DNA from: Persephonella marina EX-H1 | GTDB lineage: Bacteria; Aquificota; Aquificia; Aquificales; Hydrogenothermaceae | DNA length: 64,000 bases | Assembly (NCBI RefSeq): GCF_000021565.1 | Contig: NC_012440.1 | Location: 1,318,210-1,382,209, forward strand | Direction of reading: 5' to 3' | In this document: piece by piece, positions 31,097-51,167 of the stretch | Layout: every line of letters starts with the position of its first letter | How positions within the stretch are numbered: position 1 is the first letter of the stretch | Translations under genes and position numbers: made by a program | Notes under the pieces: generated by a model | What the model was told of the DNA's origin: nothing | What the model saw: only the letters and a program-made list of their open reading frames with translations | The model's database searches: none

Positions 31097-31226
31097 CGGT
31101 TACCCTCTTTGGAATATTTTTATTTTTATATTATCACACATCTGAAAAGCATAATAATAGTATCTTTGTATAATTTTTCAATATCTGTTTTTATCATCAT
31201 TATTTTAATTATTTGATCTGTGACAA

Positions 31227-31256
31227 TTGAAAATCTTAATCTTGAATTAAAATAAT
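31227..31256 (+). promoter_or_regulatory. Putative promoter of the two-partner secretion locus
   Basis: TTGAAA (31227-31232), 18-base spacer, AATAAT (31251-31256); both hexamers match consensus at five of six positions. A second -35-like TTGACT (31258-31263) lacks a clear -10 box. A small inverted repeat GCTAA-GTTA-TTAGC follows at 31271-31284. The 245-base gap 31097-31341 is A/T-rich and holds no other gene. Confidence 0.4.
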
Positions 31257-31341
31257 ATTGACTTCAGGATGCTAAGTTATTAGCTTATTATTTAAAAGTA
31301 TAAGAATTTCTTTATCTCTTTGTTTTTAAATAGGGGATGTA

Positions 31342-32895
31342 ATGACTGTTGTAATTAGAAGCAGATTATTACTTTTTATCTTAAGTTTACTTCTATTACT
31401 TTCAGGAACATCCTATTCATCAGATAAGATATACGTGAAAAACTTTCTTATAGTTGGTAATAGAGCTTTAAACTGGGATGAGATTTACAGTATAGTTAAA
31501 CCTTACAGAAACAGATATCTATCCCTGAAAGATCTGAAAGATCTAACAGACAGTATTACAAAAAAATATATAGAAAAGGGTTACATAACATCTAAAGCCT
31601 ATATACCACCTCAAAATGTAAGTGATGGGATTATAATCATCAGGATTTTTGAAGGGAAAATCGGTGAGATCAGAACAGATGGAGAGTTTGACCATTACAG
31701 TAAAGAGTTTGTAAACAGGTACTTTATACCTCTAAAAGAGGACAAGGCTTTTAACAGATTCCATCTTGAAAAGGTTCTCCTTGTTCTAAACAGCTACAGT
31801 GATCTTTCAGTAAAGGTTAACGTTAAGAAAGGATCAGAACTTGGAACTACAGATTTAGAGATCAAAGTCACAAGTGATAGATATCCATTTTCTGGGGCTG
31901 TGTTTTATGACAACTATGGATCAGAGTACACAAGTAGAAACAGATACGGGATCAATCTAAACTTCGGAAATCTTTTAATAGAAGGATCAAGTCTTTCTTT
32001 AACAGGAATAGTAGGTGACAGCTATAACAAGTTACATACAGGAAGTCTCTCCTACCAGTTTCCTTTAGGTCCTTCAGGTTTACTGACAGGTTTCTTGGTT
32101 TCTGTAGGTAACAGTAATATAGGAAAGGAGCTTGCTGTTTTAAATATAAAAAGTTACTCAGAGTATTACTCAGTTTATTTCAGCTATCCTGTTTTTAAAT
32201 CTTTTATAAAGGATCTTTCATTAAAAGGATCATTTAATGTTACAAACTATAAACAGTCCATACTGAATCAGACCACAACGAAAGATAAATACAGGTATAT
32301 AGATCTTGGTATTGGATACATAAAATCAGGATACAGATCCCGTACAAGTTTGGATATCAAGTTTGTACAGGGATTGGGGGAAACGTTAGATGATATATTT
32401 GGAAGCAGCTCTTACAACACAAGAAGTGGTGCGGATAAGGGCTTCTCAAAACTTGAGTTCTCTGCAGTAAGGAATCAGTTGGTATCGGACAGATTTATGC
32501 TGATCTTAAGATTGAGGGGACAGTATTCTGACGATACCTTACTTTCATCTCAGAACTTTTATATCGGTGGTCCAGCATCAATAAAAGGTTATCTTTTAAG
32601 TCAGTACGGAGGAGATTCTGGATACGCTTTATCTGGAGAAGTTAGATTTATGCCTCTGGAAAGAAAGGATAGATTGCAGCTTGCACTGTTTGCTGAAACA
32701 GGTCAGGTATTTTTAAATAAAACTTCCATAGGACAGTACAAGGATAAAACACTTACAGGAGCAGGATTTGGGATAAGATCAAGACTGTGGTGGGGGATAG
32801 ATCTGACAGCTGATTTGGCATTTCCTTTAGATCCTGAGGTGGATGGTGATGACAGGGAGTACAACTTTTATATTCAATTAATAAAAACGTTTTAA
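31342..32895 (+). CDS. Two-partner secretion outer-membrane transporter (FhaC/ShlB/HecB family, TpsB)
   Basis: 517 residues. Signal peptide about 1-26, then a ShlB-type POTRA region at about 30-180 (IYVKNFLIVGNRALNWDEIY; ITKKYIEKGYITSKAYIPPQ). The rest is a 16-strand-type beta-barrel with alternating aromatic strands. The conserved L6 loop motif appears as SIKGYL in FYIGGPASIKGYLLSQYGGD. The protein ends in Phe, as outer-membrane barrels do. It should recognise the TPS domain of the giant exoprotein encoded two genes downstream and export it without ATP. The inner-membrane step would be Sec-dependent. Confidence 0.9.
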   Translation: MTVVIRSRLLLFILSLLLLLSGTSYSSDKIYVKNFLIVGNRALNWDEIYSIVKPYRNRYLSLKDLKDLTDSITKKYIEKGYITSKAYIPPQNVSDGIIIIRIFEGKIGEIRTDGEFDHYSKEFVNRYFIPLKEDKAFNRFHLEKVLLVLNSYSDLSVKVNVKKGSELGTTDLEIKVTSDRYPFSGAVFYDNYGSEYTSRNRYGINLNFGNLLIEGSSLSLTGIVGDSYNKLHTGSLSYQFPLGPSGLLTGFLVSVGNSNIGKELAVLNIKSYSEYYSVYFSYPVFKSFIKDLSLKGSFNVTNYKQSILNQTTTKDKYRYIDLGIGYIKSGYRSRTSLDIKFVQGLGETLDDIFGSSSYNTRSGADKGFSKLEFSAVRNQLVSDRFMLILRLRGQYSDDTLLSSQNFYIGGPASIKGYLLSQYGGDSGYALSGEVRFMPLERKDRLQLALFAETGQVFLNKTSIGQYKDKTLTGAGFGIRSRLWWGIDLTADLAFPLDPEVDGDDREYNFYIQLIKTF

Positions 32896-32908
32896 ACAGG
32901 AGGATGCT

Positions 32909-33628
32909 ATGACTGAAGCAACAGAACCACTTTACAAACAGATAGAGATAATAAACTCAGATATCCATAAAGATCTAAGGATATCTCCTCTGAAGGATTT
33001 TAGAAGATTTAAAAATCTAAACTCCTGTATCGTTCTCGGTGGTGAGTTTGCAGAGGCATCAAAGTTTTATCCTATAGTCTTTATAAAAACAGCTAAAGAA
33101 GGAGTGACGCCTGTCATCATTCTCGGTTTTGATCAGAACTTTTTTGTTGATGAAGATGGCAAATGGAAGGAAGGCTATTACATTCCAGCTTTTGTAAGAA
33201 GATACCCCTACATCCTCGTGGAAGAAAAAGGAGAGAAAGAGGAGGACAGAAAGCTTTTTGTTGCTGTTGATAAATCATATGAAGGATACAACGCAGAGAA
33301 TGGAGAGAAGCTGTTTAACGAAGATGGAAAAAACACAGATTATCTGAACAGAATGATTGACTTCTTACGGGCTTATGATCTTGATTACAATCTGACAATG
33401 AGATTTGCTAAAAAACTTGAAGAGCTTGATCTATTCCAGACAATAGAGGCAACAATAAAAACTCCAGACAACAGAACATTTGTTATGAAAAATCTCCTTG
33501 CTGTAGATGAGAAAAAGCTTAGAGAACTTGAGGATAAGGAAGTTCTTGATCTTTTCAGATCTGGTTTTTTAGGCTGGATATATGCCCATCTTATATCACT
33601 TAATAACTTTGCGAGAATTGTGAGGTGA
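32909..33628 (+). CDS. SapC-family protein
   Basis: 239 residues, no signal peptide or transmembrane segment. The pattern HKDLRISPLKDFRRFKN, CIVLGGEFAEASKFYPIVF, GYYIPAFVRRYPYIL and LDYNLTMRFAKKLEELDLF matches my knowledge of the SapC family (PF07277), named after a gene beside the Campylobacter fetus S-layer secretion locus. AGGAGG lies five bases before ATG 32909, 13 bases after the transporter gene and 30 before the exoprotein. Placement suggests a cytoplasmic accessory of exoprotein handling, perhaps a chaperone or modifier; no catalytic motif is evident. Confidence 0.8.
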   Translation: MTEATEPLYKQIEIINSDIHKDLRISPLKDFRRFKNLNSCIVLGGEFAEASKFYPIVFIKTAKEGVTPVIILGFDQNFFVDEDGKWKEGYYIPAFVRRYPYILVEEKGEKEEDRKLFVAVDKSYEGYNAENGEKLFNEDGKNTDYLNRMIDFLRAYDLDYNLTMRFAKKLEELDLFQTIEATIKTPDNRTFVMKNLLAVDEKKLRELEDKEVLDLFRSGFLGWIYAHLISLNNFARIVR

Positions 33629-33658
33629 AAACTTTAAAATTGTTTGAGGTTTTCAGCC

Positions 33659-36600
33659 ATGGGGAAGACAAATCTTTTAAGGAAGAAAAGATGGGATCTG
33701 TTTGAAAAGGCTGTTTTAAGAAGAGATATTTTAAAGGGAAAGTATAGATCTCCTGAAAGGGAAAGATCAGGTCTGTTCAGGATAATCGCAGGAGGTTCTG
33801 CATCAACACTGATACTTCTGTCCTCATCGTACGGTCTTCCCAAGGGAGCTACCGTCGTTTCTGGGAATGTTTCTATAAGTACAGATCCTTCAAGGATGAT
33901 CATAAATCAGGCTACAGATAAGGCGATACTGAACTGGATCTCCTTCAGTATAGACAGGGGAGAACTTGTCAGGTTTAATCAGCCGGGTGTTAACTCTGTA
34001 ATTTTAAACAGGGTAACAGGTCAGGATCCAACTCTGATCTTAGGTCAGCTGATAGCAAACGGAAAGGTATTCCTTGTAAATCCAAACGGTATAATCTTTG
34101 GCAGGTCTGCTGTTGTAGATGTTGCAGGTTTAGTGGTAACCACACTTAATATATCCGATAAGGATTTTCTGTCTGGAAACTATAAATTTTCTCAGATGGA
34201 TGACAAGGAATTAAGTCAGATTGTTAATAAAGGTGAGATAAAGGTTTCGGAGGGAGGGTTTGTAGTTCTTTCTGCACCATCTGTTTCAAATGAAGGACTT
34301 ATTTACGCAAAATTAGGTACTGTTGTTTTAGGTTCAGGAACTCAGTTTAGCTTTGATTTTACAGGAGATGGGCTTGTTACATACTCTGTGGAAGCACCTG
34401 TTGGTGAGAAGGTTCTTGATTTAGAAGGAAGATCTGTAGACACAGCTGTCTCAAACAGAGGTGTTATAAAAAATGATGGTGGTACGGTTTTACTTACAGG
34501 AGATGCTGTCCAGCAGGTGTTTTCTTCAATAGTAAACAATGAGGGCGTTATAGAGGCAAACTCACTTTCTATAAAAGATGGAAGGATTATTATTGAAGGA
34601 AACTCAGGAACTGTTAAAAATTCAGGTGTTATAGATGTATCTGCAAAAAAAGACGGTAAAGAGGGGAGTATCTCAATAACAGGGGATACTATCATAAACA
34701 GCGGTGTTATAAAAGCTGATGGAAATGATAATGCTGATGCTGGAGAGATCTATATATACTCAGAAAAGCTGACGGAGTTAGATCAGAACTCTTTAATTCA
34801 GACTGTTGGAAAAGGTAAAGACTCAGATGGTGGTTTTATTGAGGTAAGCTCGGAGAAAGAGGTTAAGTTAGGTGGGCAGATCTATGTTTACTCGGAAAAA
34901 GGAAAGGCAGGAAAAGTTCTTATTGATCCTGAGAACCTTATTATAGATACAGATTACTACTCTGCAGGTGGTGATTACCTTTTTGAAGCTACAAACAGTA
35001 TCACAGTTAATCAGAATGTAACAGTATCAACGAGAAATACAGGAACTCCGACGGCTAACGGTGGAGCTCCAAATGATCAGCTCACATCCCCTTCTGTTGG
35101 AAATTCTGGAAATTTAGAGCTTAAAGCACCTAACATAACAATAGAATCTGGAGCAAAACTTCTAACATTTGCAGATTCTGGATATACATCCGGTTATCTA
35201 AAGTTAACAGCCACTGGGAGTAATACAAATATAACAATCAATTCTGGAGCTGTACTGAAAGGTGGTGATATAACAGTATCAGCAACATCTAGTAATGAGG
35301 ACAGTTTTGATCCGGTTAGTGATGAAGCTGACACTGTTATTATTGATTTTCTTGATCCTTTTACTGAGTACTACGCACCTGGCAGTAAAGTAAATGCTGA
35401 GGCGATATCTAAAGTAGACATTAAAGACCAGGCAACCTTAGAGGGTAGCAGTGTAACTGTTACAGCCTCTTCAACAGGAACTGTATCATCAGAGGTTCAT
35501 CTTAACCAGACTCTTGTAACATATGCAAAGGTTAAATCTCAGGCAGAGGTAAATATAGACGGTATTATAAAATCCTCTGGAACGATTGATATAAAAGCAA
35601 CATCCACAGAAAATCTGATATCACACGCAACAGCTGTAAATGCAGGTCAGAGGGTCACCGGTGAGGATATCTTTATAAGTGTTGCCTATGGAAAGGGAGA
35701 CCTTATATCTAAGGTCACAGTTGGATCAACAGCGGATATAGAAGGTGGAACGGTAAGTATAAGTTCAACCGGAACTAAAAATGTTTCTATAAAGGCAAAA
35801 GGTGCTGCTTATGAGGATGGAACACTAAGTGGAGCTGTGGCTGTAGCTTTCTTAAGTGATACTGTTGAGACTTCCGTAAACGGAAAAGTGAGATCGTTAA
35901 CCGGTAATGTTGGTATAACCTCAACACTTGATGTAACAAAAACAGAAACTAAAACTAATGCAGCCTCAGGAACTGGACTTTTAACTCCTGTCACTGATAC
36001 GGCAACATTTTTAGAGGTTAAAGGTGTCAACAAATTTATAGACAAGTATGTTCCCCTTGGTGAAGAGGGAAGCGGGAAGACAAAATTCAGTTTTTCTATA
36101 ACGTTTACATATCTTGACACAAAGTCTGATGTTCTTTCGTATGTTGGCTCAGGTGGAGATATAAGATCAAATCTGAACATAGATATAAAGTCAGAACTGA
36201 AATATAAGGATAACGGTATTCTGTCAGGGGCTTCTGCTTCAGTTAATAACAACGATGAGAACAAGAAGGAATACTCAGTAGCTGGAGTAATAAATGTTGT
36301 AAAGGCTGATGAAAATGTAAAAGCCTATGTTGGGAGTAACGCGGTCTTAAATCTCCTTGGAGATCTTTCCGTTTACTCAAATATATATATACCCCATGGT
36401 TACACTCCTGCTTATAAAGATGGAATCCTTTATGACATAGGAATGGGAGATTTCTTTGATGAGGTGAGAAGTTATATCGCAGAAGTTACCCCAAACACCC
36501 TGACCCTCAGTACCTCAGGTGGTGATGTGGTCGGTGCGGCAGGAACGGTTAATATCGCTGTATTTAATGAAAAGTCTTATGCTTATATAGATTCTAACGC

Positions 36601-39600
36601 ATCTGTAAACCAGGATGAAACTTTTGTGACAAATCCAGGAAAGGTCTCAGTTAAAGCTGAAAACCATTTTGAGTACTTCAACTACGGTGGCGATATAGGT
36701 GGAGATTTTTCAGGTCAGGATAAGACAGCTGTAGGTGGATCTTACCTTGGTGTGGATCTTACAATGGATACACAGGCTTACATAAATGATAACGTTTCTC
36801 TCAGAGCTGAAAATCTTCTTGTTAACGCCTATACAGATCTTTTCCTTGCAAACGCAGGTGTTGCAGGTGGTTTTGCAGATGAGTACGGGATAAACGGTGT
36901 ATTCAATTATGTCTCACTTAATGAAACAACAAGATCTTTTGTTGGAAATGGATCTGTTCTAAATATAGGTGTGACACCTGTTGATCTAAATAACAACGGT
37001 ATTTTAGATCCAGATGAGACAGAGAGCCTTGTCGTAAACGCTGTTTCCAGAAATAGAATCCTGAATGTTTCAGGAGGAATAGTAAAGTCCCACAGTGTAG
37101 GAATAGGAGCTTCTGTATCAATAAATAATATAACAAGAAATACTGAAGCATATCTTTCTGGAACTGTATACACAGAAGGTAATATAGGAGTAAGTTCAAA
37201 AACGGAAGGATGGATCTCTGCTGGATCTTTAGCAGGATCGTACACATCTCCAAACCGTTTTAAAGGTATAGAAGAGGATGATCCTCTGGATGGAGTCAGT
37301 CTTCCAAACCTTTTTGGTGAAGAGAAACAGGATGCTTCAAAACCACAGTCCGGTATCGCTATTGCCGGAACAAGCTCTGTAAACATAGTTGATAGCACAA
37401 CAAAGGCATATATAGATAGTGCGATAATTTCAGGCGGTGGTATCTCCTCTGGCAGCGTAGATGTAAATGCTCTTGATAAATCTGGAATTTATGCTACAGG
37501 TGGAACTGTTGCTGTAGCAAAAATGTCAGGAAGTTCTGCAGGTCTTGCCGGTGGATTTTTCGGAAATTATATCACCACTGATATACAGAGTTATCTATCT
37601 TCATCCGATCTTGATATCTCCTTTCTCAGTTTAAAGTCTGAAGACAGCACTGTTATTATGGGTGTTGGGGCTGGTGGTGCAGTTGCCATTAACAGTGAGA
37701 GTAAGATATCCACATCTCTGGCAGGTGCTGTTTCCAAAAACAGCATAACAAAGAACATTCTTTCCTATATTTACAGCTCATCGGTTGACTCTTCTGGATC
37801 AGTTTCTACAGATGTTGCCGACACATCAGATATCATTTCAGCTGCCGGTGATGTTTCTGTATCAGGTTATGCTGCTGGGGCAGCTATCGCATTGAATACT
37901 GTTTCAGGGGAGGAGAAAGCTTATATAGAAAGTTCCGATATATCTGCGGACAGTGTTTCTGTAAAATCTGAGAGTAACGTATCGGTAAAAGATATTAGTG
38001 TTTCAGCCTCAGCATCCTTAGATAAGCTCGCTGCGGCAGCTTCGGTCTCTATAAATGATATTTCAGTTAATAACAGAAGTTATATCAGAGGTAAGAGATC
38101 ATCAGGTATATCAGCTTTAAATGATATAACGGTAAGGTCTTCATCAACCCATACCATAACCATTATCTCAGGTTCGGCGGCTGTAGATAAAACGTTCTCA
38201 GGTCTTGGTATAGGTGGATCAGCTTCTTACAACAATGTTAATAATGAGGTTGATTCTTACATAGAAGGTAGCTCTGTAAGCTCTTCAGCTGGAAATCTAA
38301 CTGTGTCCGCAACTCAGAGTATAGATAGTTTAACAGTTTCTGTAAATACACAGCTTTCAAAACTGAATATTGGTGTAAATCTGGCTGTAAATAATTTTAG
38401 CAACTTTACAAGATCATACATAACAGGCTCGTCAGTTGATGTTTTCGGATCTGTTGGTGTTCTTTCAACATACACGGGAAGTAATGAGGTTTACGGTGGT
38501 GTTGTTCAGGGTGGAAGTGGCGGATTCGGACTTGGAGGTTCAGGTGTTGTTAATATATACGAAAACACAACAGATGCGTATATAGACTCATCAGATATCT
38601 CAGGCAGAGGAAATAAAGGGATAACACACAGTAATGCAGACCAGAATAAAGCTGATGAGGTCTCATCAGGTGTTGTTGTTGTTGCAGATGCGAGAGAAAC
38701 AGAAAAAGCTGGAACAGCTACAGCTACTGTTAATGCCAGTGGGGCTCTGGCTTTAGATGGATCTTTGAGTGTTGATCTTTTCAAAAATAGCACAAATGCC
38801 TATATAAACAGTTCTAATATAAATCAGGATAACTCAGCTGATAATCCTGTCCAGTCTGTAAAAGTTAAGGCTTACTCAGGTGTTGTTGTTGATACAGGAA
38901 ACGGAGGACTTAACTTTGGTTCAAATGCAGGGGTGGGTCTCTCTGCAGGTGTTGTGAAGATCCAGAACAGAACATCATCATATATTAATAACTCCGATGT
39001 GAACAGTAAAGATGGTGGAGTTCAGGTAACATCCAGAACTCTTGAGGATATTCTCACAGTATCAGTTGCAGGATCTATATCAAAAAATATATCATTTGCA
39101 GGATCAGGTAATGTAATCTATTTAGACAGTTCAAACAGCTCATACATACATTCATCAACAGTCAAAACTGAAGGAAACATTGATGTTATCGCGGAAGATA
39201 CTGTAAAAGTCGGTGATAAGGATCAGAACGGAAATTATGATGCTGGTGCTGTAGCCGGTAGTGTATCAGTTGGAGGGACAACAGTTGGTGTAGGTGGTTC
39301 TGTAAATGTTGTGAATGTTAAGAATAAAACGTATTCGTATATAATCAGCTCAACCACTGATTCAGCTTTAACAACTACAGTTTCAGCAAACTCAGATAAG
39401 CTTTTTTCCATGTATGCTGCAAATGTTGCTGCTTCTGCAACAGCAGGAATAGGTGGTTCTGTAAATGTTCTGTTGGTATCGTCAGATACAAAGGCTTTCA
39501 TAGGTTCTGACGATTCTGGAAATGGTTCTGATATTAACAGTTCATTCAGAGGTGGAAGTCAGACTGTAAATGTGAGCTCTACAGATAAAACAGATTACAA

Positions 39601-42600
39601 AGGTGGTGTGGGAAGTGGTGAAGTATCTAAGTTAATAGCAGCAGGTGGAGCTGTAGATGTTGCGATAATAAATGTTAAGAACCGTGCCTATATCGGTGAA
39701 AATACAACTGTAAAAGCTGATTACTCCGTAGGCGTAACAGCCTACACAGAAAACAAGGTTGACTCTACAGTTATAGCCTTTGGTGGTGGTCTTGGTGGTG
39801 TGGCAGGTTCTGTGTCTATTGCTAATATAGGTAAAGCGTTTGATGCAGATCAGGATGAGGCTACAGGAGATATAGGCGGAAGTATTGACGGAAGTATAAA
39901 CAGATACACAGATTTAGATTCTGGAGATCAGAGTATAAACAATGATTTAACTGATGCAAAAGCAGGACTTACAGTCTCAGATAGTGTTGATCCTGGTGCG
40001 AATTTTGAGAGTGTGACAGCAGCATTTGTTGGGAAAAATTCAAATGTTTCCTCTGGATCTGGTGGTATAAGAATAAATGCAACTGAATCAACAGCTATAA
40101 GTTCTGTTGTTGGAGCTATAGCAGGTGGAGCTGTTGGTGTCAGCGGTTCTGTCTCTGTTCAGAAGAATTACTCAAATCTTTTCTCGTACGCCGACTCAGG
40201 TTCGGTTTTATCCTCAACGGGAGATATAACATTAGATTCTTACAGAACTGTAAGTGCAGGGATAAATACCTATGCAGGTGAAGGTGGTGGTGTAACACTT
40301 GGAGCAGCTGTTTCTTACCTGTATCTCGGTGGTGATATATACTCCTTCTTAGGAGATAATACTCAGGTTACGGATACGCCAAAACTCAGCCTGAAGTCAC
40401 AGGAAGTTAACAGTGCAGAGGTAAGAGCTTACGGAACACATGCAGGTGTAGCTGTTGCAGGTGGTGCTGCATCAAAGGTTGTCTTAGAAAGTAATGTTCA
40501 CTCGTATACAGGAAGTGGTGTAAAGATCGGAAGTTCTGAAGATAAGAACAGGGTAAAGAATGTATCAATAATCTCTGATACAGACACAACGGTAAGAGCT
40601 TCTGCTGTTCCTGTTAATGTTGGAGCTGTGTCTGCACAGGCTGCTGTTGTTGATATCTCATATAAAACCAATGTCAGATCTTATACTGGTTCAGGAAATC
40701 AGGTGTTCATATCAGGACTCCTTGAGGTTGGATCTAAAGCAGCGTACGAGATTTACGGCTCTACAACAGGTGTTAATTTAGGAGGTGCTACCGCCGGTGC
40801 TTCAGTAACAACGATAGATATATCACCTGATCTTAAGTCATATCTGTCAGGTGGAAACAGTATAGATGCAGAAGATATAAGTATCTACTCAAAGGTGGAA
40901 GATCCATCAAACACATCTGCAGATGGTTCGGCATATGCTGAGGCTAAATCTTCAGCATCCTCAGGTGGAACACTTTTAGGTGCGAACGCTTCCGTCTCAA
41001 CGGTAAATAACACAACGAACATTGAAACTTACATAGGAACAGGTTCAGATATCAGATACGGAAACAGCCTTTCCCTTGAAAGCTATCTGAAAGGAAGAAC
41101 GTACAGTTATGCTACAGGAATTGGGGTGGGATTTGTTGGTATTGGTGCAAGTGTTACGGAGAACAGCTCACAGATAAATGTGAGTACAGGTTTAAGATCA
41201 GACAGTAATATTTACTCGGATAATGGAAGTTTTGCTCTTAACGCATACTCCCTTTACGGCTCAAAGGCTGAGTCTGTTGCAGGATCTGGTGGAGTAGTGG
41301 CCGGAAATGCATCTGTTGCAAAAAATGATATAACAGGAACTAACAGGGTTTATATAGATAGCGGTTCAAGACTGAAAGGAAAAACAGGAAGTATAAAATC
41401 TGAAAGAGATATTGAGTTTAACAGTTTTGCAGACAGTAAAAACGCATCTGTACTTGGTATGAGCGGTGCTTATTCAGAGGATTATATACATGATTCACAT
41501 TCTAAAGTAGATATAGGTAGTGGATCATCTCTTGAATCCTACTCTTTATCTGTAAAAGCGAAGAACAGACATTCTAAAAAAGCTTCAGGCTGGTTTGGCG
41601 GAAAAAATAACTCTGAAGCAGGATCGGGAGGTGTATATTCTGGTGCGGCTTCTCTAACATCTGTAAGATTAAAGAATATAAACGCTCAGATAAATATAAA
41701 TGACGGTGCTAATCTGAAATTACTTGGAAATCCTACAAACTTTTACAATCTTGAGAGTATGCTTATAGAGGCATATGGAAATATAGATCTTGACGCTAAT
41801 GCAAAGCTTTCAGCAGGTGGAACTATAGTAGGTGCTAAATCTGATGTAAAGGTGGAGGCGGATGAAGGTATAGGTTCTGCTGTAAATATCGGAAATAATG
41901 TTCAGATGCAGATTAACGGAAATCTCACAATAGCTGCATCAACATCAGGAAAGGCCAGTGCAAAGGCAAAAACAAACACTTACGGTCTTGCCGCTGCAGG
42001 TCAGGGAAAGTCAAAAGCAAGCCTGGCTGTTAACGACAGTATAAAGATAAACTCCGGCTCAGATATAAGAGTTTTCGGGGATGCAACCCTTGTAGCAGGC
42101 AAAAGTTCTGGTGGAAGTGGATATATAGAGACATACGCAAATACAGATGTTTACAATAAAACCGCCTTTGCTTATAGTGGGTCTCCTGATGCTGACGCAA
42201 CATCGGTAAAAAATGCGTTCATATCTGTGGGATCTGGATCATCACTTAAAACAGGAAGGGATATAAATCTGTCTGCGGAGAAAGGTTATCTTTCCGCTTA
42301 TGGGTATGGAAAGGCAACCGATGCATCCAGAGAGGCTATAGAATCTATAGTTTCAACAATCTCAGAGACATTTGGTGGTGATGAAGTCTCCCTTGATACA
42401 ATCGCAGGAAGCAGTGTAAAAGCAGGTTCTGGTAATGTGGAGATAAATGGACTTGTGGAAACAGGCCTTTACAGACATGTTTATATAACCTTTGGAAATG
42501 GAATGGATCCTGGTTTTTATGTTGAGGAAGAATATGATTCTGCTCAAAATCTCGTATCAAATCTTGTTCCAAATAGAGTTGAGTATGAAAACGGAAAATG

Positions 42601-45600
42601 GAATGTTTACGACAGGGATGGTAATTTTGTAAAAACTTTAACCCCATCTGAGCAGAGTGAGATAGGTGTAGACTGGGAGATACTGAAAGATATCAGGATC
42701 GCAACATCACTTGATAAACAGATAGAAGAGCTTAAAAAACTTAAAAGCCTTTATCCTGAACTTTCGCAGGATATAGATGCAACAATAGCAACACTTGAAG
42801 GCCAGAAAACAGATCCGGCAACAAATCAGACAACACATATCATAAAACTTAAAGATATAGTGGCATCTTCTGGTAATATAAGCGTTAGAGCTGACAACCT
42901 GTATGGTTTTGGAAGTTTAAAAGCTCCCGGCGATGTTAAGATAGAGATAAAAAACAACTCTCCTCTTCCTATTGAAGTAGGTCAGATAGAGATCCCTAAG
43001 GATTACGGTGGCAATATAGAGTTTAACGGTAAAAAGGTATCCCAGACATCAGATGTTTTACTTATAAATGATAATAAGCTACTTCCGGTTAACCTTTCTC
43101 TTCAGGATGCACAGAACAGCGAATCACCATCTATTCTTATAGAGTCCACATACAGCAAAAAATACGCTGGAACGGACAGTAACGGAAAGGTTTTCTACAA
43201 ATATCCACCACCCATACTTGTTGGACCTGTCAATGCCATATCTGCAGATGATGACAGCGTATCTGTAAGTGGGGACTCTCCTACAGGTAACAAGGCTATA
43301 TCAAACTTTGCAGGTTCTGTAACTATCAGAAATAATAACGGTAGTGTTTTTGTGACAGAGGATATATTTGCGAACACCATCACAATATCAGCAGGTGGAA
43401 ACTTTGTTTTCAACAATCCAAAACTTGTTTTTAATGTGGCTTACTCTCCAGAATCGTACTTTTCTTCACTCCATGATTATGCAAAAGGACAGCTTTCTTC
43501 ACAGAATGACGGTAATGTTTCGTCTGATAGCGACACTAATTTACAGAACAGTTACGACAGCCTTATTGCTGGAACGTATAACCACTCAAATAAATATCTC
43601 CTTGCGGGGAACAATATATTTATAAATGCTGAAATTATAAATGTTAACGGCCTTATCCAGAGCGGTATCCCTTATAAAGATATAACGATCACAGATGATA
43701 TGATAAACAATGCTATAGCATCAGGAAATTACACTCTGTTTAACGGAGAGGAACAGTACGATCCGGGGAGAGATCTTTTTGTAGGTAAGTACAATGTAAC
43801 GATAAACCCTGATGAGAAAAAGGTTTATGTCTCAGGTCTTGATATAACAGGTGGAACTGTATTTCTATCAGGAAAGATAGCAAATACAGGTGGTGGAAAG
43901 ATAAATGTACTGGATGGATTTGGAAAAATAAATATAAACAACCAGAGCAGTTACGAACTTGTACTTGATTCTGTAGATACAGGAAATATAGAAGGAAAGG
44001 TTACCATTGTAGACAAGCTTAAAGATAACGGAACTGGAAAGTATCTTGTAACAGAGATAAGAAGAATTGGTAATGAGATAAGGGTTTACACAAATCAGGG
44101 TGTTGACTCAAACCAGGCAACAGTATTAACGGCAACTGCTACAGGCAGGACAACATCTTACAACCCGCTTTCAGGCCTGAGATACTACTGGATGGAAGGT
44201 TACACAACCTCTACCTATACCCTGACAGAGTACTATAAAGAGTTTAATAAATTCCTTGGCTTTATTCCTGTATCAGAAAGGAATTTCACTAATAATGATA
44301 TAGTCAGTCAGGTCACAAGAAATCTTGGAAGTTCGGAGATTGACAGTGGATTTGTCCAGGGATTTATGAGAGATTCTAACGGAAATATAATAGCCAATCC
44401 CCCAGAGTATAACTTTGACAAAATAACAACAACGGATTATGACTTCACATTTACTGAAAACTTTTCAGGCACTAAATGGGATTTCTTAACTAAGAAAACA
44501 TGGATAAGAAGGATCACTCACAATTATACAGGAACAACAACCAAATTATACTCTTCCGTTAAAGCTGATTATCCTATAGAGATTGTATTTACAGGTGAGG
44601 ATGTAGGTGAAGTAAATATAAACAGTACAACAGATGTAATTCTGAAAGGAGGAATAACAAATAAAGGAGGAGCTGTAAATATAAATACAGGAGGAAGCCT
44701 GTACACAGAAAGCCTTGCTCCTATTAATGCAAGTGTAATAAATATCAATGCACCGGATTCCGTTGGAACTGTTGATAACCCTATAAGAGTAAGTGGAGAT
44801 CCTGCAGTTTCCGTCGGTGCAAATCTAAATGGTGTTTATATTGACGCTGTATCAAGTAATATCCTGGTCTCAACAGGAATAAACACTGCAGGAGATCTTA
44901 GAATAAGATCTGATAAAGGAATGACAATTGTTGGACTACTGAAAGGTAAGAACATACATTTAGAGGCGGTAGATGGACAGATAACTTCAGGAAATCCATC
45001 AGATCCGTACATAAATATAGACACAGATATAGACAACGGCGGTAAACTTTATATGACAGCAACCTATGGAAATATTTATGTTAGAGAGGTAACAGGAGAT
45101 CTATCTGTTAATACAGTTAGCACACTTGGAAATGTGTTTATACAGGTACCTTCAGGATCTCTTGTTGATGGAAATCCAAATGAGAATGTTGATAAGAGAA
45201 CAGCTTTAGAGCTTGAGCTTCTTTATAACGATCTTGGTCTTCAGGGATTGTCAGCACAGCAGTTAAGGGATCAGCAGATAGATGCTTACAAACAGAGTAT
45301 GGAGATAGAGTACGATAAATACTGGCGTGAGTACAGAGATCTTAAACTTAATCCTGACGGAACATACTCATACACACCTTATGAACCTGTGGAGTTTAAG
45401 TTCAGTCCTGAGGAAGTGGCTGCACTGAAGGCTCAGGGCTGGACAGACCAGATGATATCAGATTATGAACAGGATTTAACAAACAAATACAACACATGGG
45501 GACAGTCAGATTACGATCCTAACTTCAGTTACATACCAACACAGAGCGAGCTTGATAAACTTACAGCAAACGAATGGACGGATGATCAGTTGAACAACAC

Positions 45601-48600
45601 TCTGCCAGCATCACTATTTAACAAGAATATAACCGATACAGAGTACAAAATTGAAGATCCAAATATAATCGGAAATAACGTAACTATTATAGCTTCGGGA
45701 TCAATAGGAAAGGATAAGAAGGAGAATATCGTTTTCTACTACAACGACACAGGAAGGTACACACAGGCAGAGCTTGATGAGATTAAAAGAGCTCTTGTTG
45801 CAGCAGAAAGACAGGATATAGAGATAGACAGGGATAATGAGGTTATCATTATCAAGCAGAGGGATGATATTGATGTTGAGGCACTGGGTTCCATCCAGGC
45901 AATAGCTGGCGGATCTGTTTACATAGGTTCAGAGCTTAATGTAAATATCTCAAATATATACAGCAGAGATAACTGGGTAAGAATAAAAACAGGAGAAGGA
46001 ATTTACTCAACATCACCGGGACTAAATGTTGATGCACCTGAAGGACTGATTATAGAAGCTTCAAACGGACCTATAGGAACAGAAATAAACCCTGTATCTG
46101 TTTCAGTAGGACAGGATGCAACAATAACCGCAAGGGCTTCGGGGGATATTAATCTCTTGGTACCTTATGGTGATCTTAATATAGACTATATCTACAGCAG
46201 GGGAGATGTTAATCTCGCTGTTCCTAACGGCTCAATAATTGATTTTTACAGTGATAGTACAGAAGATATCACAGCAAAATCAGTCACACTTACAGCCGGT
46301 ATGTACGGCGGTCTTCCGGGAAGCTACGATAACGCACTTGATATTAACCTTACAGATGAAAACGGTAAGATCAGTTTATACGGATATGGTAGTTTCAATA
46401 TATACAAGGAAAACTCCATACTGTTTGGTGATATAAATATAGGTGGCGATCTGACACCTAAAACATTCGGTGATATAACATTCACAGGTAAAGTCGCTGC
46501 CAACAGCATACAGATAGACATTCCTGGCAGTATTACAGTAAATGAGAATACAGGTATAGCAACTGTAACAGGTCTGATATTTAAATCAAACAGCGGAAGT
46601 ATTGATATAAACTCATCTCTCAGCAGTAATGGATATATATCCTTAATATCAGATAAAGGTATTCACAGTTCGGGAAGGATTTACTCATCAGGGGCTATGC
46701 TCCTGAAAACACCAGGTGATATCATATTTGATGGAGATGGTGGAGCTGGATCTGGAGTTTCTCTGTTTATGGAAGCTGGAAAGAATATAAATCTAAACTC
46801 TAAAGGTGGATATTTTGCACCAGAAGTCACAATTAATGCAGGAGAAAGCTTTTACACAAACAGTCCTATATCAGGAAACACAATAGACATAAACACAAAC
46901 GTAGATTTTACCGCAGATATTAATGGGTATATAAGAGGATACTCATATCTCAATATTAACGCAGGAAACTACTTCACAGCAAAAAACGGACTGTCTGCAA
47001 AAGGTGACCTCACATTAAGATCAGGAAATGATATGAATCTTACAGGCTTTTTAATAGGAGACAATATAGATATAACATCTGGAGGAAGTTTTACAGCAGA
47101 GAGTGATCTGTATATCTCAAGTATAAGCTCTGTTAATATATCTGCTGTTGATGATATATTCCTCGGTATGAAAACAACATCAAGGGGAGAGATAAATATT
47201 ACAGGGAAAAATATAACCATAACAGATACTGTCCAGTCTGTTGAAGATATAGACTTTATTGAACCGGAGTTTAATTTAGAGCTTGATCTTAACAATCTTG
47301 TTGACCTGATAAACAACAACAGATCCACTATAGCCCAGTACTTAGAAAGCGGGTTTGATCTTGGACAGACCTTACAGAGATCTGAGGATATTTATATAAA
47401 TCATACAGACTTCCTGAATTTAATGGGTTCAGATCTTGGTATATACGCACAGGTTAAAAGCTTTCTGTTTAATAATCAAGATCCAACAACGACACTATCC
47501 GGTGTGCCTGCCGATGGTCAGATAGGTTCAAGGCTTGTTATAAACAACCCTGTTCAGAATGTATCGTACACACCACCTTCAGTTATTGTTACTCCTTCTG
47601 ATACTGACAGTGTAAATATCTCAGCTGTTAATGATATAAATATTGACACGGCTATACTCTCAACAGGAAATGTTGATATAACAGGGCAGAGCATTTATAT
47701 AAAAGGTCTTGCAGGGGGTAAGTATCTCAGTATAGATGCTGGAAAAGGTATAGAGATTGGAGAACATACACTCCTTCATGGAGTGTTCAGTACAGATATC
47801 AGCTCTCCTGAAAGAATAAAAGGTTCAAAAGTGGCTATAGCAACAAATGGTGAGATGAACATATCCGCCCCAGTTATTGATATTGAAGGATTTATTTACG
47901 CATTTAACAATGTAAACCCAACTATCAAGCAGATAACAGACTATCTTGATCCGGTTTTAAATCTTGATTACATACTTAACACCCTTGATATGAATCCTTC
48001 AGTTGATGCATCAATAAATATTGCAGGTGGAGAGTCCATAAACTTCAAAGGTGCTATCGTTTCAACAGGTGGGGTTGATATATCAAGTAAAGATATATCA
48101 ATGACCTCAGTAACAGCTGGTAATTACGTATCTATAACCTCACCAAGTAGTATAACAATAGGAAGTGATTCAGTTGTTTACGGTGTTACGACGATAGATA
48201 TTGATGCAGGTGGAGATCTTAGTATAGATGGGTTCTTAGGTAACAACGGTATAGTTACACTGAACTCAGGTGGAGATGTTCTGATAAAAGGTTCTGCTGT
48301 CTCAATAGCTGATCTCCCACTTGATCTGGAAACGATCATAGACGCTGCAGGAAAGCTTACCGCTGGAGATGTTTATTCAGCTATCGTTGATTTTGCAGGA
48401 ACTTACAACCCATCAGATTCTAACGGTGTATTCCTTAATGCACCTGACGGAGATATCACAATCTCAGGAAATTTTGTATCCACAGCTACAGCGAAATTCA
48501 CAACAAACAACGTTTACATATCAGGAACTGCTGGAGCAAAGAACTTTGTTGCTGAAGTTCCTGGTGATTTCATAACTGAGGAAAGATCTATCGTTTATAA

Positions 48601-51088
48601 CCTTGGAAAACAGATCATAGATGTTGAAGGTTATGTAAAGATAGGTGGATATCTTTCAGGAACAGGAGAGGTAAAAATAAGCTCAGATAAAGATGTTACA
48701 GTATCAGGATATATACTCTCTGTAGGAAATGTTCCATTCACCATAGATGATCTTGTAAGGGTTGTAGGAAGTAGAAATGTTGATCTTCCTTACGAAAAGG
48801 TCAGGAATTTTGAAGGAGAGTTTAATGCTCTTAATAACAACACAATAGATATTTACGCAAAAGGAAAGATTGATGTAACAGGATACATACTTACAATGGC
48901 AGATGTTACATTAAAGGCTGAGGACAGACTGAATATAGATCATGTTGTTTTAGGCAACTCTGTTACACTTGAAAGTCCCAATGATATTCCTGTAAAAGAT
49001 AACACGATCATAGCATCCTACGATTTTGTAAATATAAACACACCTTCAGATGTTCAGGTAGGTGGAACTGTCGCTACAAATGGATCAGCATCAATAAACG
49101 GAAACAATGTGTTTATATCAGGTAAGGTGCTTTCAAATGATAAACTTCCTATCAACCTGAGCGATTACATAAAACAGGCTTTAGATATGACGCCAGATAG
49201 TCTGTTCAATGAACTTAAAGATGATGCTTACAATCTTACAGGTAACGATATAAATACCGTTGATGTGAACGCAAAAGGTTACGTTGATATTACAGGTGGA
49301 ATAGTTTCCAATGCAAGGGTGAATATTGATGCTGGATCTTTCCTCAATGTTGATGGAATAGGGGTTGTTACTGTAAACGGTGCAGATCTTAAAGCTGGCG
49401 ATACTGTAAATATCAACTCTGTTGTTAAATCTACAGAGAAGGATGTGATCATAACATCAGGTTCAGATATCTCATTAAACGGGGCTGTATTTGGATTTAC
49501 AGATGTTTCTATAAATTCAGGTGGAAAGCTGATAACAGGTGAAAAAACAGCTATCTTTGGTAGAAACTCTATCTCTCTAACTGCAGATAAGGATTTGGTT
49601 TATAAAGGTTTTGCAGGTAGTAAGGATAGGATAGAGATAACAGCAGGAAAAGATATAAATCTGAAAGGTTATTTAGCTGTTTATCCAGAATTTGAGTTCG
49701 GAGACGAACTGTTCACTGAAAATACAGATCCAGGAGATCTTTACAGAAGAGTTAAAAAAACAGATGCAACTTACTCATTTAAGGACAGAGGAAATGTTAG
49801 TGTTGTCTCTAACGGAGGTAACACTGTAGTCTCAGGAACTGTTTTATCCTCAGACAGACTGTATCTGGAAGGAAAAGGAACGTTTATAACAGGTATTGTA
49901 GGAGGATACGATTTAGATATAAGATCGCCTCAGATATTTGTATCAGGTTCCAAATCTGTTATTTACGAATCAAAAGATCAGAAGATAATCTCAGATGGGG
50001 ATATACTGATTGGTGGATATCTTGGAAGTGACAGTAATATAGAGATAAACTCCGGTTCAAATCTTACAGTTAACGGCTATATAGTTTCTAATGATGATCA
50101 GGCTACAGATATAGATGAGCTGTTCAGAATTACAGACGGAGATGGATCTGCAGTTGTTGAAAAAGGAAAGCAGTTTATAAAGAATTACAGGGATAATATA
50201 TCAGATCAAAAAGAAAACTCTGTGCTGATCAGTTCTGGAGGGTTTACAGAGATAAATGGTGGTATCCTATCCTCTTCTGAGATCAGTGTAACCTCTGATA
50301 GTATATCAGTTAAAGGTCTCGGTGTCATAACTGAGGACAATCTAATCCTTAAATCAGGAAAGAATGTTGAGCTTTATTCAGGGGTTAAAGCATTAAAAGG
50401 TTTAGCTGAAATCTCAGCAGATGACAGGATAGTCAGAGTTGGAGGACCAAGGGAGATTGATGATCTTGATATTGAGGCTGTAAATACAGAACTTTACGGA
50501 TTTAACGGTATAGGTTCTCCGTCTAATCCTATCAGAATAAGAACAGAAAAAATAAAGGCTGATTCACAGAATGGTGGGGTTTATATCGATCTTTACGGAG
50601 ATTCCTACGCTGAAACGATTACGGCTGGAAATGGGGATATAAACATAAATCTTTTTGATGGAGATCTGAGATTTACAGGTATTACTGCAGATAAAGGACA
50701 GATCAGTATAAATGTTAAGAGAGGCAGTGTTACAGGAGTTGATGATCCTCATATCTCAGCAGATGGAAACACATTCATTGAAGCTGAATATATAAATTAT
50801 GAAGGAGATACCCCAATCAGAATGAAGCTTGATAAAGAGATATTTGTTGTTGATTCAAAATCTGATAGATGGATGTTTGATCTGTCCCAGCCTGTTCCTG
50901 AATGGATCGTGTTTAACAAAACCCTTTACGGTGGTAGAAAACTTGATGTTGTTATGGAAGCTTTATCTTCAACAACAGTTCCACCTGAAGAGATCATTAA
51001 GATAATTGAAGAGAGGGGAATAGTTGAACCTGAAGTGAATAAAGAAAAAGAGGTGATCAACTACTCACAGTTAGAGACGGTATGGTAA
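33659..51088 (+). CDS. Giant two-partner secretion exoprotein, filamentous haemagglutinin/adhesin family (TpsA)
   Basis: About 5,809 residues in one uninterrupted frame. Start ATG 33659 has GAGGT nine bases upstream; TTG 33644 would overlap that ribosome site. A long, basic signal sequence (about 1-62, hydrophobic core ASTLILLSSSYG) leads into the TPS domain: AILNWISFSIDRGELVRFNQ, then VFLVNPNGIIFG near residue 141. Residues about 860-2680 hold roughly 53-residue repeats, and 4,530-5,560 a longer module with helical inserts. I found no cysteine. There is an EF-hand-like loop at residues 1109-1120 and two helix-rich spacers (about 2,930-3,060 and 3,840-4,000). No VENN motif, toxin domain or immunity gene is seen, so an adhesin or matrix filament is more likely than contact-dependent inhibition. 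Confidence 0.9.
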   Translation: MGKTNLLRKKRWDLFEKAVLRRDILKGKYRSPERERSGLFRIIAGGSASTLILLSSSYGLPKGATVVSGNVSISTDPSRMIINQATDKAILNWISFSIDRGELVRFNQPGVNSVILNRVTGQDPTLILGQLIANGKVFLVNPNGIIFGRSAVVDVAGLVVTTLNISDKDFLSGNYKFSQMDDKELSQIVNKGEIKVSEGGFVVLSAPSVSNEGLIYAKLGTVVLGSGTQFSFDFTGDGLVTYSVEAPVGEKVLDLEGRSVDTAVSNRGVIKNDGGTVLLTGDAVQQVFSSIVNNEGVIEANSLSIKDGRIIIEGNSGTVKNSGVIDVSAKKDGKEGSISITGDTIINSGVIKADGNDNADAGEIYIYSEKLTELDQNSLIQTVGKGKDSDGGFIEVSSEKEVKLGGQIYVYSEKGKAGKVLIDPENLIIDTDYYSAGGDYLFEATNSITVNQNVTVSTRNTGTPTANGGAPNDQLTSPSVGNSGNLELKAPNITIESGAKLLTFADSGYTSGYLKLTATGSNTNITINSGAVLKGGDITVSATSSNEDSFDPVSDEADTVIIDFLDPFTEYYAPGSKVNAEAISKVDIKDQATLEGSSVTVTASSTGTVSSEVHLNQTLVTYAKVKSQAEVNIDGIIKSSGTIDIKATSTENLISHATAVNAGQRVTGEDIFISVAYGKGDLISKVTVGSTADIEGGTVSISSTGTKNVSIKAKGAAYEDGTLSGAVAVAFLSDTVETSVNGKVRSLTGNVGITSTLDVTKTETKTNAASGTGLLTPVTDTATFLEVKGVNKFIDKYVPLGEEGSGKTKFSFSITFTYLDTKSDVLSYVGSGGDIRSNLNIDIKSELKYKDNGILSGASASVNNNDENKKEYSVAGVINVVKADENVKAYVGSNAVLNLLGDLSVYSNIYIPHGYTPAYKDGILYDIGMGDFFDEVRSYIAEVTPNTLTLSTSGGDVVGAAGTVNIAVFNEKSYAYIDSNASVNQDETFVTNPGKVSVKAENHFEYFNYGGDIGGDFSGQDKTAVGGSYLGVDLTMDTQAYINDNVSLRAENLLVNAYTDLFLANAGVAGGFADEYGINGVFNYVSLNETTRSFVGNGSVLNIGVTPVDLNNNGILDPDETESLVVNAVSRNRILNVSGGIVKSHSVGIGASVSINNITRNTEAYLSGTVYTEGNIGVSSKTEGWISAGSLAGSYTSPNRFKGIEEDDPLDGVSLPNLFGEEKQDASKPQSGIAIAGTSSVNIVDSTTKAYIDSAIISGGGISSGSVDVNALDKSGIYATGGTVAVAKMSGSSAGLAGGFFGNYITTDIQSYLSSSDLDISFLSLKSEDSTVIMGVGAGGAVAINSESKISTSLAGAVSKNSITKNILSYIYSSSVDSSGSVSTDVADTSDIISAAGDVSVSGYAAGAAIALNTVSGEEKAYIESSDISADSVSVKSESNVSVKDISVSASASLDKLAAAASVSINDISVNNRSYIRGKRSSGISALNDITVRSSSTHTITIISGSAAVDKTFSGLGIGGSASYNNVNNEVDSYIEGSSVSSSAGNLTVSATQSIDSLTVSVNTQLSKLNIGVNLAVNNFSNFTRSYITGSSVDVFGSVGVLSTYTGSNEVYGGVVQGGSGGFGLGGSGVVNIYENTTDAYIDSSDISGRGNKGITHSNADQNKADEVSSGVVVVADARETEKAGTATATVNASGALALDGSLSVDLFKNSTNAYINSSNINQDNSADNPVQSVKVKAYSGVVVDTGNGGLNFGSNAGVGLSAGVVKIQNRTSSYINNSDVNSKDGGVQVTSRTLEDILTVSVAGSISKNISFAGSGNVIYLDSSNSSYIHSSTVKTEGNIDVIAEDTVKVGDKDQNGNYDAGAVAGSVSVGGTTVGVGGSVNVVNVKNKTYSYIISSTTDSALTTTVSANSDKLFSMYAANVAASATAGIGGSVNVLLVSSDTKAFIGSDDSGNGSDINSSFRGGSQTVNVSSTDKTDYKGGVGSGEVSKLIAAGGAVDVAIINVKNRAYIGENTTVKADYSVGVTAYTENKVDSTVIAFGGGLGGVAGSVSIANIGKAFDADQDEATGDIGGSIDGSINRYTDLDSGDQSINNDLTDAKAGLTVSDSVDPGANFESVTAAFVGKNSNVSSGSGGIRINATESTAISSVVGAIAGGAVGVSGSVSVQKNYSNLFSYADSGSVLSSTGDITLDSYRTVSAGINTYAGEGGGVTLGAAVSYLYLGGDIYSFLGDNTQVTDTPKLSLKSQEVNSAEVRAYGTHAGVAVAGGAASKVVLESNVHSYTGSGVKIGSSEDKNRVKNVSIISDTDTTVRASAVPVNVGAVSAQAAVVDISYKTNVRSYTGSGNQVFISGLLEVGSKAAYEIYGSTTGVNLGGATAGASVTTIDISPDLKSYLSGGNSIDAEDISIYSKVEDPSNTSADGSAYAEAKSSASSGGTLLGANASVSTVNNTTNIETYIGTGSDIRYGNSLSLESYLKGRTYSYATGIGVGFVGIGASVTENSSQINVSTGLRSDSNIYSDNGSFALNAYSLYGSKAESVAGSGGVVAGNASVAKNDITGTNRVYIDSGSRLKGKTGSIKSERDIEFNSFADSKNASVLGMSGAYSEDYIHDSHSKVDIGSGSSLESYSLSVKAKNRHSKKASGWFGGKNNSEAGSGGVYSGAASLTSVRLKNINAQININDGANLKLLGNPTNFYNLESMLIEAYGNIDLDANAKLSAGGTIVGAKSDVKVEADEGIGSAVNIGNNVQMQINGNLTIAASTSGKASAKAKTNTYGLAAAGQGKSKASLAVNDSIKINSGSDIRVFGDATLVAGKSSGGSGYIETYANTDVYNKTAFAYSGSPDADATSVKNAFISVGSGSSLKTGRDINLSAEKGYLSAYGYGKATDASREAIESIVSTISETFGGDEVSLDTIAGSSVKAGSGNVEINGLVETGLYRHVYITFGNGMDPGFYVEEEYDSAQNLVSNLVPNRVEYENGKWNVYDRDGNFVKTLTPSEQSEIGVDWEILKDIRIATSLDKQIEELKKLKSLYPELSQDIDATIATLEGQKTDPATNQTTHIIKLKDIVASSGNISVRADNLYGFGSLKAPGDVKIEIKNNSPLPIEVGQIEIPKDYGGNIEFNGKKVSQTSDVLLINDNKLLPVNLSLQDAQNSESPSILIESTYSKKYAGTDSNGKVFYKYPPPILVGPVNAISADDDSVSVSGDSPTGNKAISNFAGSVTIRNNNGSVFVTEDIFANTITISAGGNFVFNNPKLVFNVAYSPESYFSSLHDYAKGQLSSQNDGNVSSDSDTNLQNSYDSLIAGTYNHSNKYLLAGNNIFINAEIINVNGLIQSGIPYKDITITDDMINNAIASGNYTLFNGEEQYDPGRDLFVGKYNVTINPDEKKVYVSGLDITGGTVFLSGKIANTGGGKINVLDGFGKININNQSSYELVLDSVDTGNIEGKVTIVDKLKDNGTGKYLVTEIRRIGNEIRVYTNQGVDSNQATVLTATATGRTTSYNPLSGLRYYWMEGYTTSTYTLTEYYKEFNKFLGFIPVSERNFTNNDIVSQVTRNLGSSEIDSGFVQGFMRDSNGNIIANPPEYNFDKITTTDYDFTFTENFSGTKWDFLTKKTWIRRITHNYTGTTTKLYSSVKADYPIEIVFTGEDVGEVNINSTTDVILKGGITNKGGAVNINTGGSLYTESLAPINASVININAPDSVGTVDNPIRVSGDPAVSVGANLNGVYIDAVSSNILVSTGINTAGDLRIRSDKGMTIVGLLKGKNIHLEAVDGQITSGNPSDPYINIDTDIDNGGKLYMTATYGNIYVREVTGDLSVNTVSTLGNVFIQVPSGSLVDGNPNENVDKRTALELELLYNDLGLQGLSAQQLRDQQIDAYKQSMEIEYDKYWREYRDLKLNPDGTYSYTPYEPVEFKFSPEEVAALKAQGWTDQMISDYEQDLTNKYNTWGQSDYDPNFSYIPTQSELDKLTANEWTDDQLNNTLPASLFNKNITDTEYKIEDPNIIGNNVTIIASGSIGKDKKENIVFYYNDTGRYTQAELDEIKRALVAAERQDIEIDRDNEVIIIKQRDDIDVEALGSIQAIAGGSVYIGSELNVNISNIYSRDNWVRIKTGEGIYSTSPGLNVDAPEGLIIEASNGPIGTEINPVSVSVGQDATITARASGDINLLVPYGDLNIDYIYSRGDVNLAVPNGSIIDFYSDSTEDITAKSVTLTAGMYGGLPGSYDNALDINLTDENGKISLYGYGSFNIYKENSILFGDINIGGDLTPKTFGDITFTGKVAANSIQIDIPGSITVNENTGIATVTGLIFKSNSGSIDINSSLSSNGYISLISDKGIHSSGRIYSSGAMLLKTPGDIIFDGDGGAGSGVSLFMEAGKNINLNSKGGYFAPEVTINAGESFYTNSPISGNTIDINTNVDFTADINGYIRGYSYLNINAGNYFTAKNGLSAKGDLTLRSGNDMNLTGFLIGDNIDITSGGSFTAESDLYISSISSVNISAVDDIFLGMKTTSRGEINITGKNITITDTVQSVEDIDFIEPEFNLELDLNNLVDLINNNRSTIAQYLESGFDLGQTLQRSEDIYINHTDFLNLMGSDLGIYAQVKSFLFNNQDPTTTLSGVPADGQIGSRLVINNPVQNVSYTPPSVIVTPSDTDSVNISAVNDINIDTAILSTGNVDITGQSIYIKGLAGGKYLSIDAGKGIEIGEHTLLHGVFSTDISSPERIKGSKVAIATNGEMNISAPVIDIEGFIYAFNNVNPTIKQITDYLDPVLNLDYILNTLDMNPSVDASINIAGGESINFKGAIVSTGGVDISSKDISMTSVTAGNYVSITSPSSITIGSDSVVYGVTTIDIDAGGDLSIDGFLGNNGIVTLNSGGDVLIKGSAVSIADLPLDLETIIDAAGKLTAGDVYSAIVDFAGTYNPSDSNGVFLNAPDGDITISGNFVSTATAKFTTNNVYISGTAGAKNFVAEVPGDFITEERSIVYNLGKQIIDVEGYVKIGGYLSGTGEVKISSDKDVTVSGYILSVGNVPFTIDDLVRVVGSRNVDLPYEKVRNFEGEFNALNNNTIDIYAKGKIDVTGYILTMADVTLKAEDRLNIDHVVLGNSVTLESPNDIPVKDNTIIASYDFVNINTPSDVQVGGTVATNGSASINGNNVFISGKVLSNDKLPINLSDYIKQALDMTPDSLFNELKDDAYNLTGNDINTVDVNAKGYVDITGGIVSNARVNIDAGSFLNVDGIGVVTVNGADLKAGDTVNINSVVKSTEKDVIITSGSDISLNGAVFGFTDVSINSGGKLITGEKTAIFGRNSISLTADKDLVYKGFAGSKDRIEITAGKDINLKGYLAVYPEFEFGDELFTENTDPGDLYRRVKKTDATYSFKDRGNVSVVSNGGNTVVSGTVLSSDRLYLEGKGTFITGIVGGYDLDIRSPQIFVSGSKSVIYESKDQKIISDGDILIGGYLGSDSNIEINSGSNLTVNGYIVSNDDQATDIDELFRITDGDGSAVVEKGKQFIKNYRDNISDQKENSVLISSGGFTEINGGILSSSEISVTSDSISVKGLGVITEDNLILKSGKNVELYSGVKALKGLAEISADDRIVRVGGPREIDDLDIEAVNTELYGFNGIGSPSNPIRIRTEKIKADSQNGGVYIDLYGDSYAETITAGNGDININLFDGDLRFTGITADKGQISINVKRGSVTGVDDPHISADGNTFIEAEYINYEGDTPIRMKLDKEIFVVDSKSDRWMFDLSQPVPEWIVFNKTLYGGRKLDVVMEALSSTTVPPEEIIKIIEERGIVEPEVNKEKEVINYSQLETVW
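36240..41700 (+). repeat. Coding repeats of about 50-55 residues in the giant exoprotein
   Basis: Protein-level, degenerate repeats. A typical unit runs: small glycine/alanine-rich strand (GGSVNV), N-x-T/S, aromatic turn (AYI or SYI), S-S-x-I/V, then a V-x-V-x-A strand. Examples are VGGSVNVVNVKNKTYSYI, AASVSINDISVNNRSYI and GGSGVVNIYENTTDAYI. At least 20 units are discernible. The pattern recalls the tandem repeats of Fusobacterium LktA-type adhesins, from memory and unverified. Confidence 0.7.
47242..50340 (+). repeat. C-terminal tandem modules of about 137 residues with helical inserts
   Basis: Each module has several beta-helix coils (patterns such as INSGGDVLIKG, G-x-AG-x-K and IVYG) followed by a 30-40 residue charged, helix-prone insert. 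The inserts begin near 47242, 47907, 48308, 48727, 49141, 49686 and 50096. Four of the six intervals are 401, 419, 414 and 410 bases; the others are 665 and 545. Similarity between modules is seen by eye. Confidence 0.65.
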
Positions 51089-51121
51089 AAAGATCTTTGT
51101 AACAGCTTTCTTTCCTTCTGA

Positions 51122-51127
51122 TATAAT
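51122..51127 (+). promoter_or_regulatory. Possible -10 box upstream of the M16-like gene
   Basis: A perfect TATAAT lies 41 bases before ATG 51168, but no good -35 box stands at the right distance. No terminator was seen between the end of the giant gene (51088) and this site, so read-through from the secretion locus is also possible. Confidence 0.3.
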
Positions 51128-51167
51128 TGATTTATGGAAAAAGTATCTCTTATTCTATGGAGAAAAA

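Follow-up and report, generated by a model that had tools for sequence, protein, structure and literature searches.

The locus lies at positions 31342–51088 of the window (the 64,000-nucleotide stretch of the Persephonella marina EX-H1 genome analysed here), on a 1.93-Mb contig, one of two in the genome assembly. It consists of three genes on the forward strand: one for a TpsB-type barrel, one for a protein of the SapC family (PF07277), and a single 17.4-kb open frame with an N-terminal TPS domain (Table 1). The gap between the TpsB and SapC genes is 13 bp and that between SapC and the exoprotein gene is 15 or 30 bp depending on the start codon, so that all gaps are below 31 bp. The adjacency, positions and spacing given in the initial annotation were confirmed for all three genes, and its description of a two-partner secretion (TPS) locus with a giant exoprotein in a member of the Aquificota is supported by the ShlB, POTRA_2 and TPS-domain matches. 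T5bSS have already been reported from Aquificae in a genome survey (PMC4793230). As a TPS locus this one falls within a known kind; the SapC-containing trio is a variant of which we found no description.

Table 1. Features of the locus and its flanks, in window positions.
Feature	Position	Strand	Description	Evidence
tpsB	31342..32895	+	FhaC/ShlB/CdiB-type outer-membrane transporter, 517 aa	Pfam ShlB, POTRA_2
sapC	32909..33628	+	PF07277 protein, 239 aa	Pfam, 3.6e-70
tpsA	33659..51088	+	giant TPS exoprotein, 5,809 aa, 610 kDa, 0 Cys	open frame; full-length homologue in G127
TPS secretion domain with NPNG motif	33836..34636	+		PF05860, TIGR01901; EtpA/HxuA/HMW1 structures
Region rich in ~53-aa LktA-type repeats	35846..41083	+		NF012206 LktA_tand_53
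Inserted 20.07-kb stretch between ffh and M16 protease gene	31097..51167	none		empty in relatives
ffh (SRP54)	29768..31096	-	left flank, outside locus	Pfam SRP54, 4.8e-74
M16 peptidase	51168..52454	+	right flank, outside locus	Pfam Peptidase_M16

The transporter and the exoprotein

TpsB matched ShlB (E 2.2e-25) and POTRA_2 (E 3.7e-20) above the Pfam cut-off, with a score over the PF03865 cut-off. The domain search reported one POTRA region, and the nearest solved structures were CdiB (6wim, E 7e-21) and FhaC. The transporter has the POTRA domain and the ShlB-type barrel of a T5bSS, and the adjacent frame encodes an exoprotein that bears a TPS domain at its N-terminus.

The extent of the exoprotein frame stood as initially annotated, except for the start codon: ATG 33659 is the likelier start than TTG 33644, because a GAGG sequence (33646–33649) lies 9 nt upstream of it. 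Translated from this ATG, the protein is net acidic. PF05860 covers residues 65–331 (E 2.9e-37, 129–136 bits), TIGR01901 matches with E 2.3e-22, the solved TPS proteins EtpA, HxuA and HMW1 match with E 1e-36 to 1e-42, and the NPNG motif lies at residue 141. The NCBIfam model LktA_tand_53 (NF012206) detected 10 repeat stretches in the first 2,000 residues (E 5.6e-50) and more in the next piece, and an [AST][YF][ILV] anchor recurs in the repeats at a spacing that is often 52–54. The NCBIfam model was used instead of a home-made repeat HMM, which gave no match in the exoprotein under default filters. In the signal region (33659–33790), a long charged stretch that includes RRDILKGKYR precedes the hydrophobic part, an arrangement like that of an extended signal peptide; this charged stretch is not conserved in the exoprotein of G127, a genome of another family in the same class.

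Calculated as a complete beta-helix, with 20 residues and 0.48 nm per coil, TpsA would reach about 138 nm at most, and the earlier estimate of hundreds of nanometres is too long. For scale, the 220-kDa TPS adhesin CdrA reaches 70 nm (PMC7616799). TpsA most probably serves as an adhesin or forms a fibre on the cell surface, and it could plausibly attach to surfaces or cells; beyond the repeats themselves, a fibre shape is what we infer. The structure prediction of the exoprotein from a single sequence had a pLDDT of 51, being low over the TPS domain and beta-rich and confident directly after it; the best fold matches of this low-confidence model were TPS domains, but with an E-value of 0.009. 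For SapC, a prediction from three sequences reached a pLDDT of 48. These models of SapC and of the TPS domain are too weak to add support; at the level of sequence, the homology of the TPS domain is very strong.

Compared with the T5bSS represented by FhaC/FHA, HMW1, HxuA and EtpA, the locus shares a TpsB with POTRA and ShlB-barrel regions, an adjacent TPS exoprotein bearing NPNG, and a repetitive body; it differs in the 5,809-aa length of the exoprotein, in the SapC gene between the partners and in its Aquificota host. The tandem repeats of about 53 aa are shared with LktA-family filamentous adhesins, and an LktA-family gene of Terrarubrum likewise has ShlB and SapC neighbours. The TpsA sequence is divergent from these adhesins, and the likeness speaks neither for nor against leukotoxicity.

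Distribution in the Aquificota

TPS domains were found in 4 of 136 Aquificota genomes. The initial annotation looked to other Hydrogenothermaceae for the same three-gene order, but none of the 40 other genomes of the family has a TPS domain, and the nearest locus of the same order lies in another family, in G127, where genes for TpsB, SapC (51–52% identical to the window SapC) and a 5,261-aa exoprotein follow each other. The flanking ffh and M16 genes form a divergent pair that is 81–126 bp apart in 15 relatives (genera g7 and g2), 767 and 775 bp apart in two more, and 20.07 kb apart in the window; the M16 gene is part of the family's core, being carried by 40 of its 41 genomes. Because the flanks abut in relatives and are so far apart here, the simplest reading is that the three genes were gained in this lineage. 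The GC content of the insert (0.352–0.387, compared with 0.377 upstream) does not mark it as foreign, so the case for transfer is made by the empty site and the distribution. Two genomes (G059 and G062) have TPS genes with no adjacent SapC gene, indicating that TPS in general can do without SapC.

The SapC protein

The unusual element of the locus is SapC, a point that the initial annotation missed; in other phyla, too, SapC is encoded next to giant exported proteins. The window protein matches PF07277 over its full length (236 bits, positions 1–219 of 220), above the gathering score. It has no hydrophobic N-terminal segment and so probably stays in the cytosol. Among 85 SapC sequences, E46, F58, N77, P93, P100 and S230 are invariant, and variation at H20 and D121 is limited to two; taken with the near-invariant H and D, the invariant E, N and S point to a possible active, binding or ligand site. 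Solved structures offered SapC nothing better than matches with E > 0.2. A search of genome contigs with SapC returned one match, to a distant Gammaproteobacterium, and viral contigs searched with three SapC proteins returned none. Our literature search found no paper that names the SapC family or gives it a function, and none that joins SapC with two-partner secretion, an absence that is weak evidence of novelty.

SapC beside giant exported proteins

The same three families occur together on plasmids of the Alphaproteobacteria Azospirillum and Thalassospira, which carry the closest plasmid TPS domains (46–47% identical to that of the window) and exoproteins of 4,669–5,964 aa. Their gene order is TpsB-TpsA-SapC, with SapC downstream of TpsA, whereas in the window SapC lies between the partners. 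In four loci of Pseudomonadota (L137, L141, L120 and L111) the order is TpsA-TpsB-SapC, and a Terrarubrum plasmid has the order LktA adhesin-ShlB-IalB-SapC. As judged from these sequences, the trio persists while gene order changes. On other plasmids a SapC gene adjoins a 38.7-kb LEPR-XLL ORF with HlyD, a 25.7-kb ORF with a type I system, a 17.9-kb haemagglutinin gene, or an autotransporter-type gene; three further plasmid SapC loci that were examined had no giant or export neighbour of such kind. At another locus (L118) SapC occurs with giants plus OEP and HlyD.

SapC was present in 141 of 397 Pseudomonadota genomes, about a third. From these 141 genomes the best-scoring 80 loci, one per genome, were compared with 40 control regions (514 genes) drawn from other parts of some of these genomes, the more complete ones. 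An ORF was counted as giant if it had at least 1,200 aa, an N+G+S+T content of at least 30% and a K+R+E+C content of at most 14%, and lay within two genes of SapC. Giant neighbours were found for 13 of the 80 SapC genes and 6 of the 514 control genes (odds ratio 16.4, p 2.7e-8), a p-value that is optimistic because the thresholds were set after a first table had been seen and the loci were the best-scoring, one per genome; related genomes, moreover, are not independent. All 13 giants are on the same strand as SapC, and most of these 13 loci have no TpsB, which was found in the region of 5/80 SapC loci and 0/40 controls. The other 67 of the 80 loci have no giant neighbour. On a SapC tree of 104 rows, the link with TPS takes six changes, at least three of them forced by well-supported branches. 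These statistics suggest that SapC works with giant export substrates.

Two arrangements with giant ORFs are of note. Three loci of Pseudomonadota (L108, L124 and L114; for example L108:2-17690) have a giant ORF, cut short at more than 3,100 aa, followed by SapC, HlyD/GAF and PqqD/M50-like genes, and L108 also has a SecA paralogue (SecA_DEAD, E 1e-95); these may be export clusters, in L108 with an accessory SecA. At L129 and L146, SapC adjoins a giant ORF very rich in Gly, Ser, Thr and Asn and a gene for a parvulin-type PPIase, identified by HMM in L129 and through a near-identical gene in L146. SapC and the PPIase could form a chaperone pair.

Proposed role of SapC and alternative explanations

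In two-partner secretion the exoprotein crosses the inner membrane by Sec, after which its TPS domain docks on TpsB. The interpretation that we favour, with moderate confidence, is that the locus is a horizontally acquired TpsB-SapC-TpsA secretion operon whose exoprotein forms a surface fibre, and that SapC acts in the cytosol on the exoprotein prior to export. The three genes, the TPS domain, the TpsB, the insertion and the conservation of the trio are the parts of this proposal that can be read from sequence. SapC would either keep TpsA export-ready, as a dedicated chaperone, or modify it, as an enzyme; its chemistry may be of either kind. TpsA, made with an N-terminal signal region, would then cross the inner membrane by Sec, its TPS domain would be recognised by the POTRA part of TpsB, and the chain would thread through the barrel and, once outside, fold into a fibre that is repetitive and mostly beta-helical, within the length limit calculated above. 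The association of SapC with giants across export machines yields a direct, testable hypothesis for SapC function. It also suggests that exoproteins of great length depend on a helper that acts in the cytosol, on the side of the substrate; the Aquificota locus offers a compact thermophile example with a clean empty site in relatives.

A potential difficulty with so long and repetitive a frame is that it might be an assembly or repeat artefact, an outcome named beforehand as one that would undo the initial annotation. We regard this as extremely improbable, because the contig that carries the frame is 1.93 Mb long, in an assembly of two, and the exoprotein of an independent genome of another family (G127) is homologous and co-linear almost end to end, with 36.6% identity across about 5,300 alignment columns and zero internal stops in both. 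The exoprotein might also belong to a contact-dependent inhibition or toxin system, CdiB being the closest protein to TpsB in the structure library; but the exoprotein has no VENN motif, no toxin domain was found in its C-terminal 1,614 residues, and no immunity-like gene is present, the next gene being the core M16 gene, whose immediate neighbour in relatives is ffh. This reading is highly improbable and was rejected. More weight attaches to the view that the locus encodes an ordinary TPS adhesin and that its SapC gene is a passenger with an unrelated job, kept nearby by chance or co-transfer. The frequency of SapC in Pseudomonadota, mostly away from giants, and the TPS loci of G059 and G062 would fit such a view; the 16-fold enrichment with all giants on the same strand, the same trio in changed gene order and the repeated link on the SapC tree argue against it, and we consider it unlikely.

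A sharper version of the favoured interpretation makes SapC an enzyme of the FliB kind that modifies exported filament proteins, flagellin and giant exoproteins being alternative substrates. Nine Aquificota proteins (L038–L041 and L044–L048) match SapC over most of its length (E 1e-25 to 2e-38), and all nine carry CX4CX3CC, which in the flagellin methyltransferase FliB has been shown to be a [4Fe-4S] motif (PMC8598068). At two loci (L036 and L037) a SapC lacking these cysteines lies beside flagellin, FliD and FliS genes, which suggests a flagellar modification locus, and the conserved residues of SapC would suit an active or ligand site. Against this, the motif is absent from 95 of 104 sequences and from the window SapC, for which FliB chemistry therefore cannot be assumed. 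PF03692 (CxxCxxCC) matched below cut-off, solely in the nine cysteine-bearing relatives, and the FliB model gave these one weak match that is not significant (E 0.36), so a possible link between PF07277 and PF03692 is a lead, not membership. Lysine methylation as the general job of SapC is not likely, as partner exoproteins can contain only 2.0–2.4% lysine. We hold the FliB-kind reading to be doubtful, on a par with the passenger view. Somewhat better placed, though still tentative, is a wider proposal, that SapC is a widespread factor of FliB-related ancestry for the cytosolic maturation of giant exported filament proteins, whatever their export route, with the Aquificota locus as a minimal three-gene example; the routes covered by this joint proposal would be TPS, type I-like and possibly those of S-layer proteins and flagellin. 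The SapC of Campylobacter fetus is presumably a PF07277 family member. In the sapCDEF S-layer locus of that organism, sapC is linked to an abundant exported surface protein (PMC4943207); unlike in the window, the S-layer protein is exported by another machine.

Other genomic contexts of SapC

The role of SapC may be wider than the export of giants, since 67 of the 80 loci have no giant neighbour and other contexts exist. The other main context is a TonB receptor-halogenase-cupin cluster: at six loci (L119, L123, L125, L138, L145 and L155) a large TonB-receptor-like protein, a tryptophan halogenase, SapC, Cupin_8 and a second halogenase-like protein are encoded together. Further SapC contexts include an FAD oxidase and a parvulin isomerase. 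At L036, L037 and L043, SapC adjoins a gene for a GT9-methyltransferase fusion.
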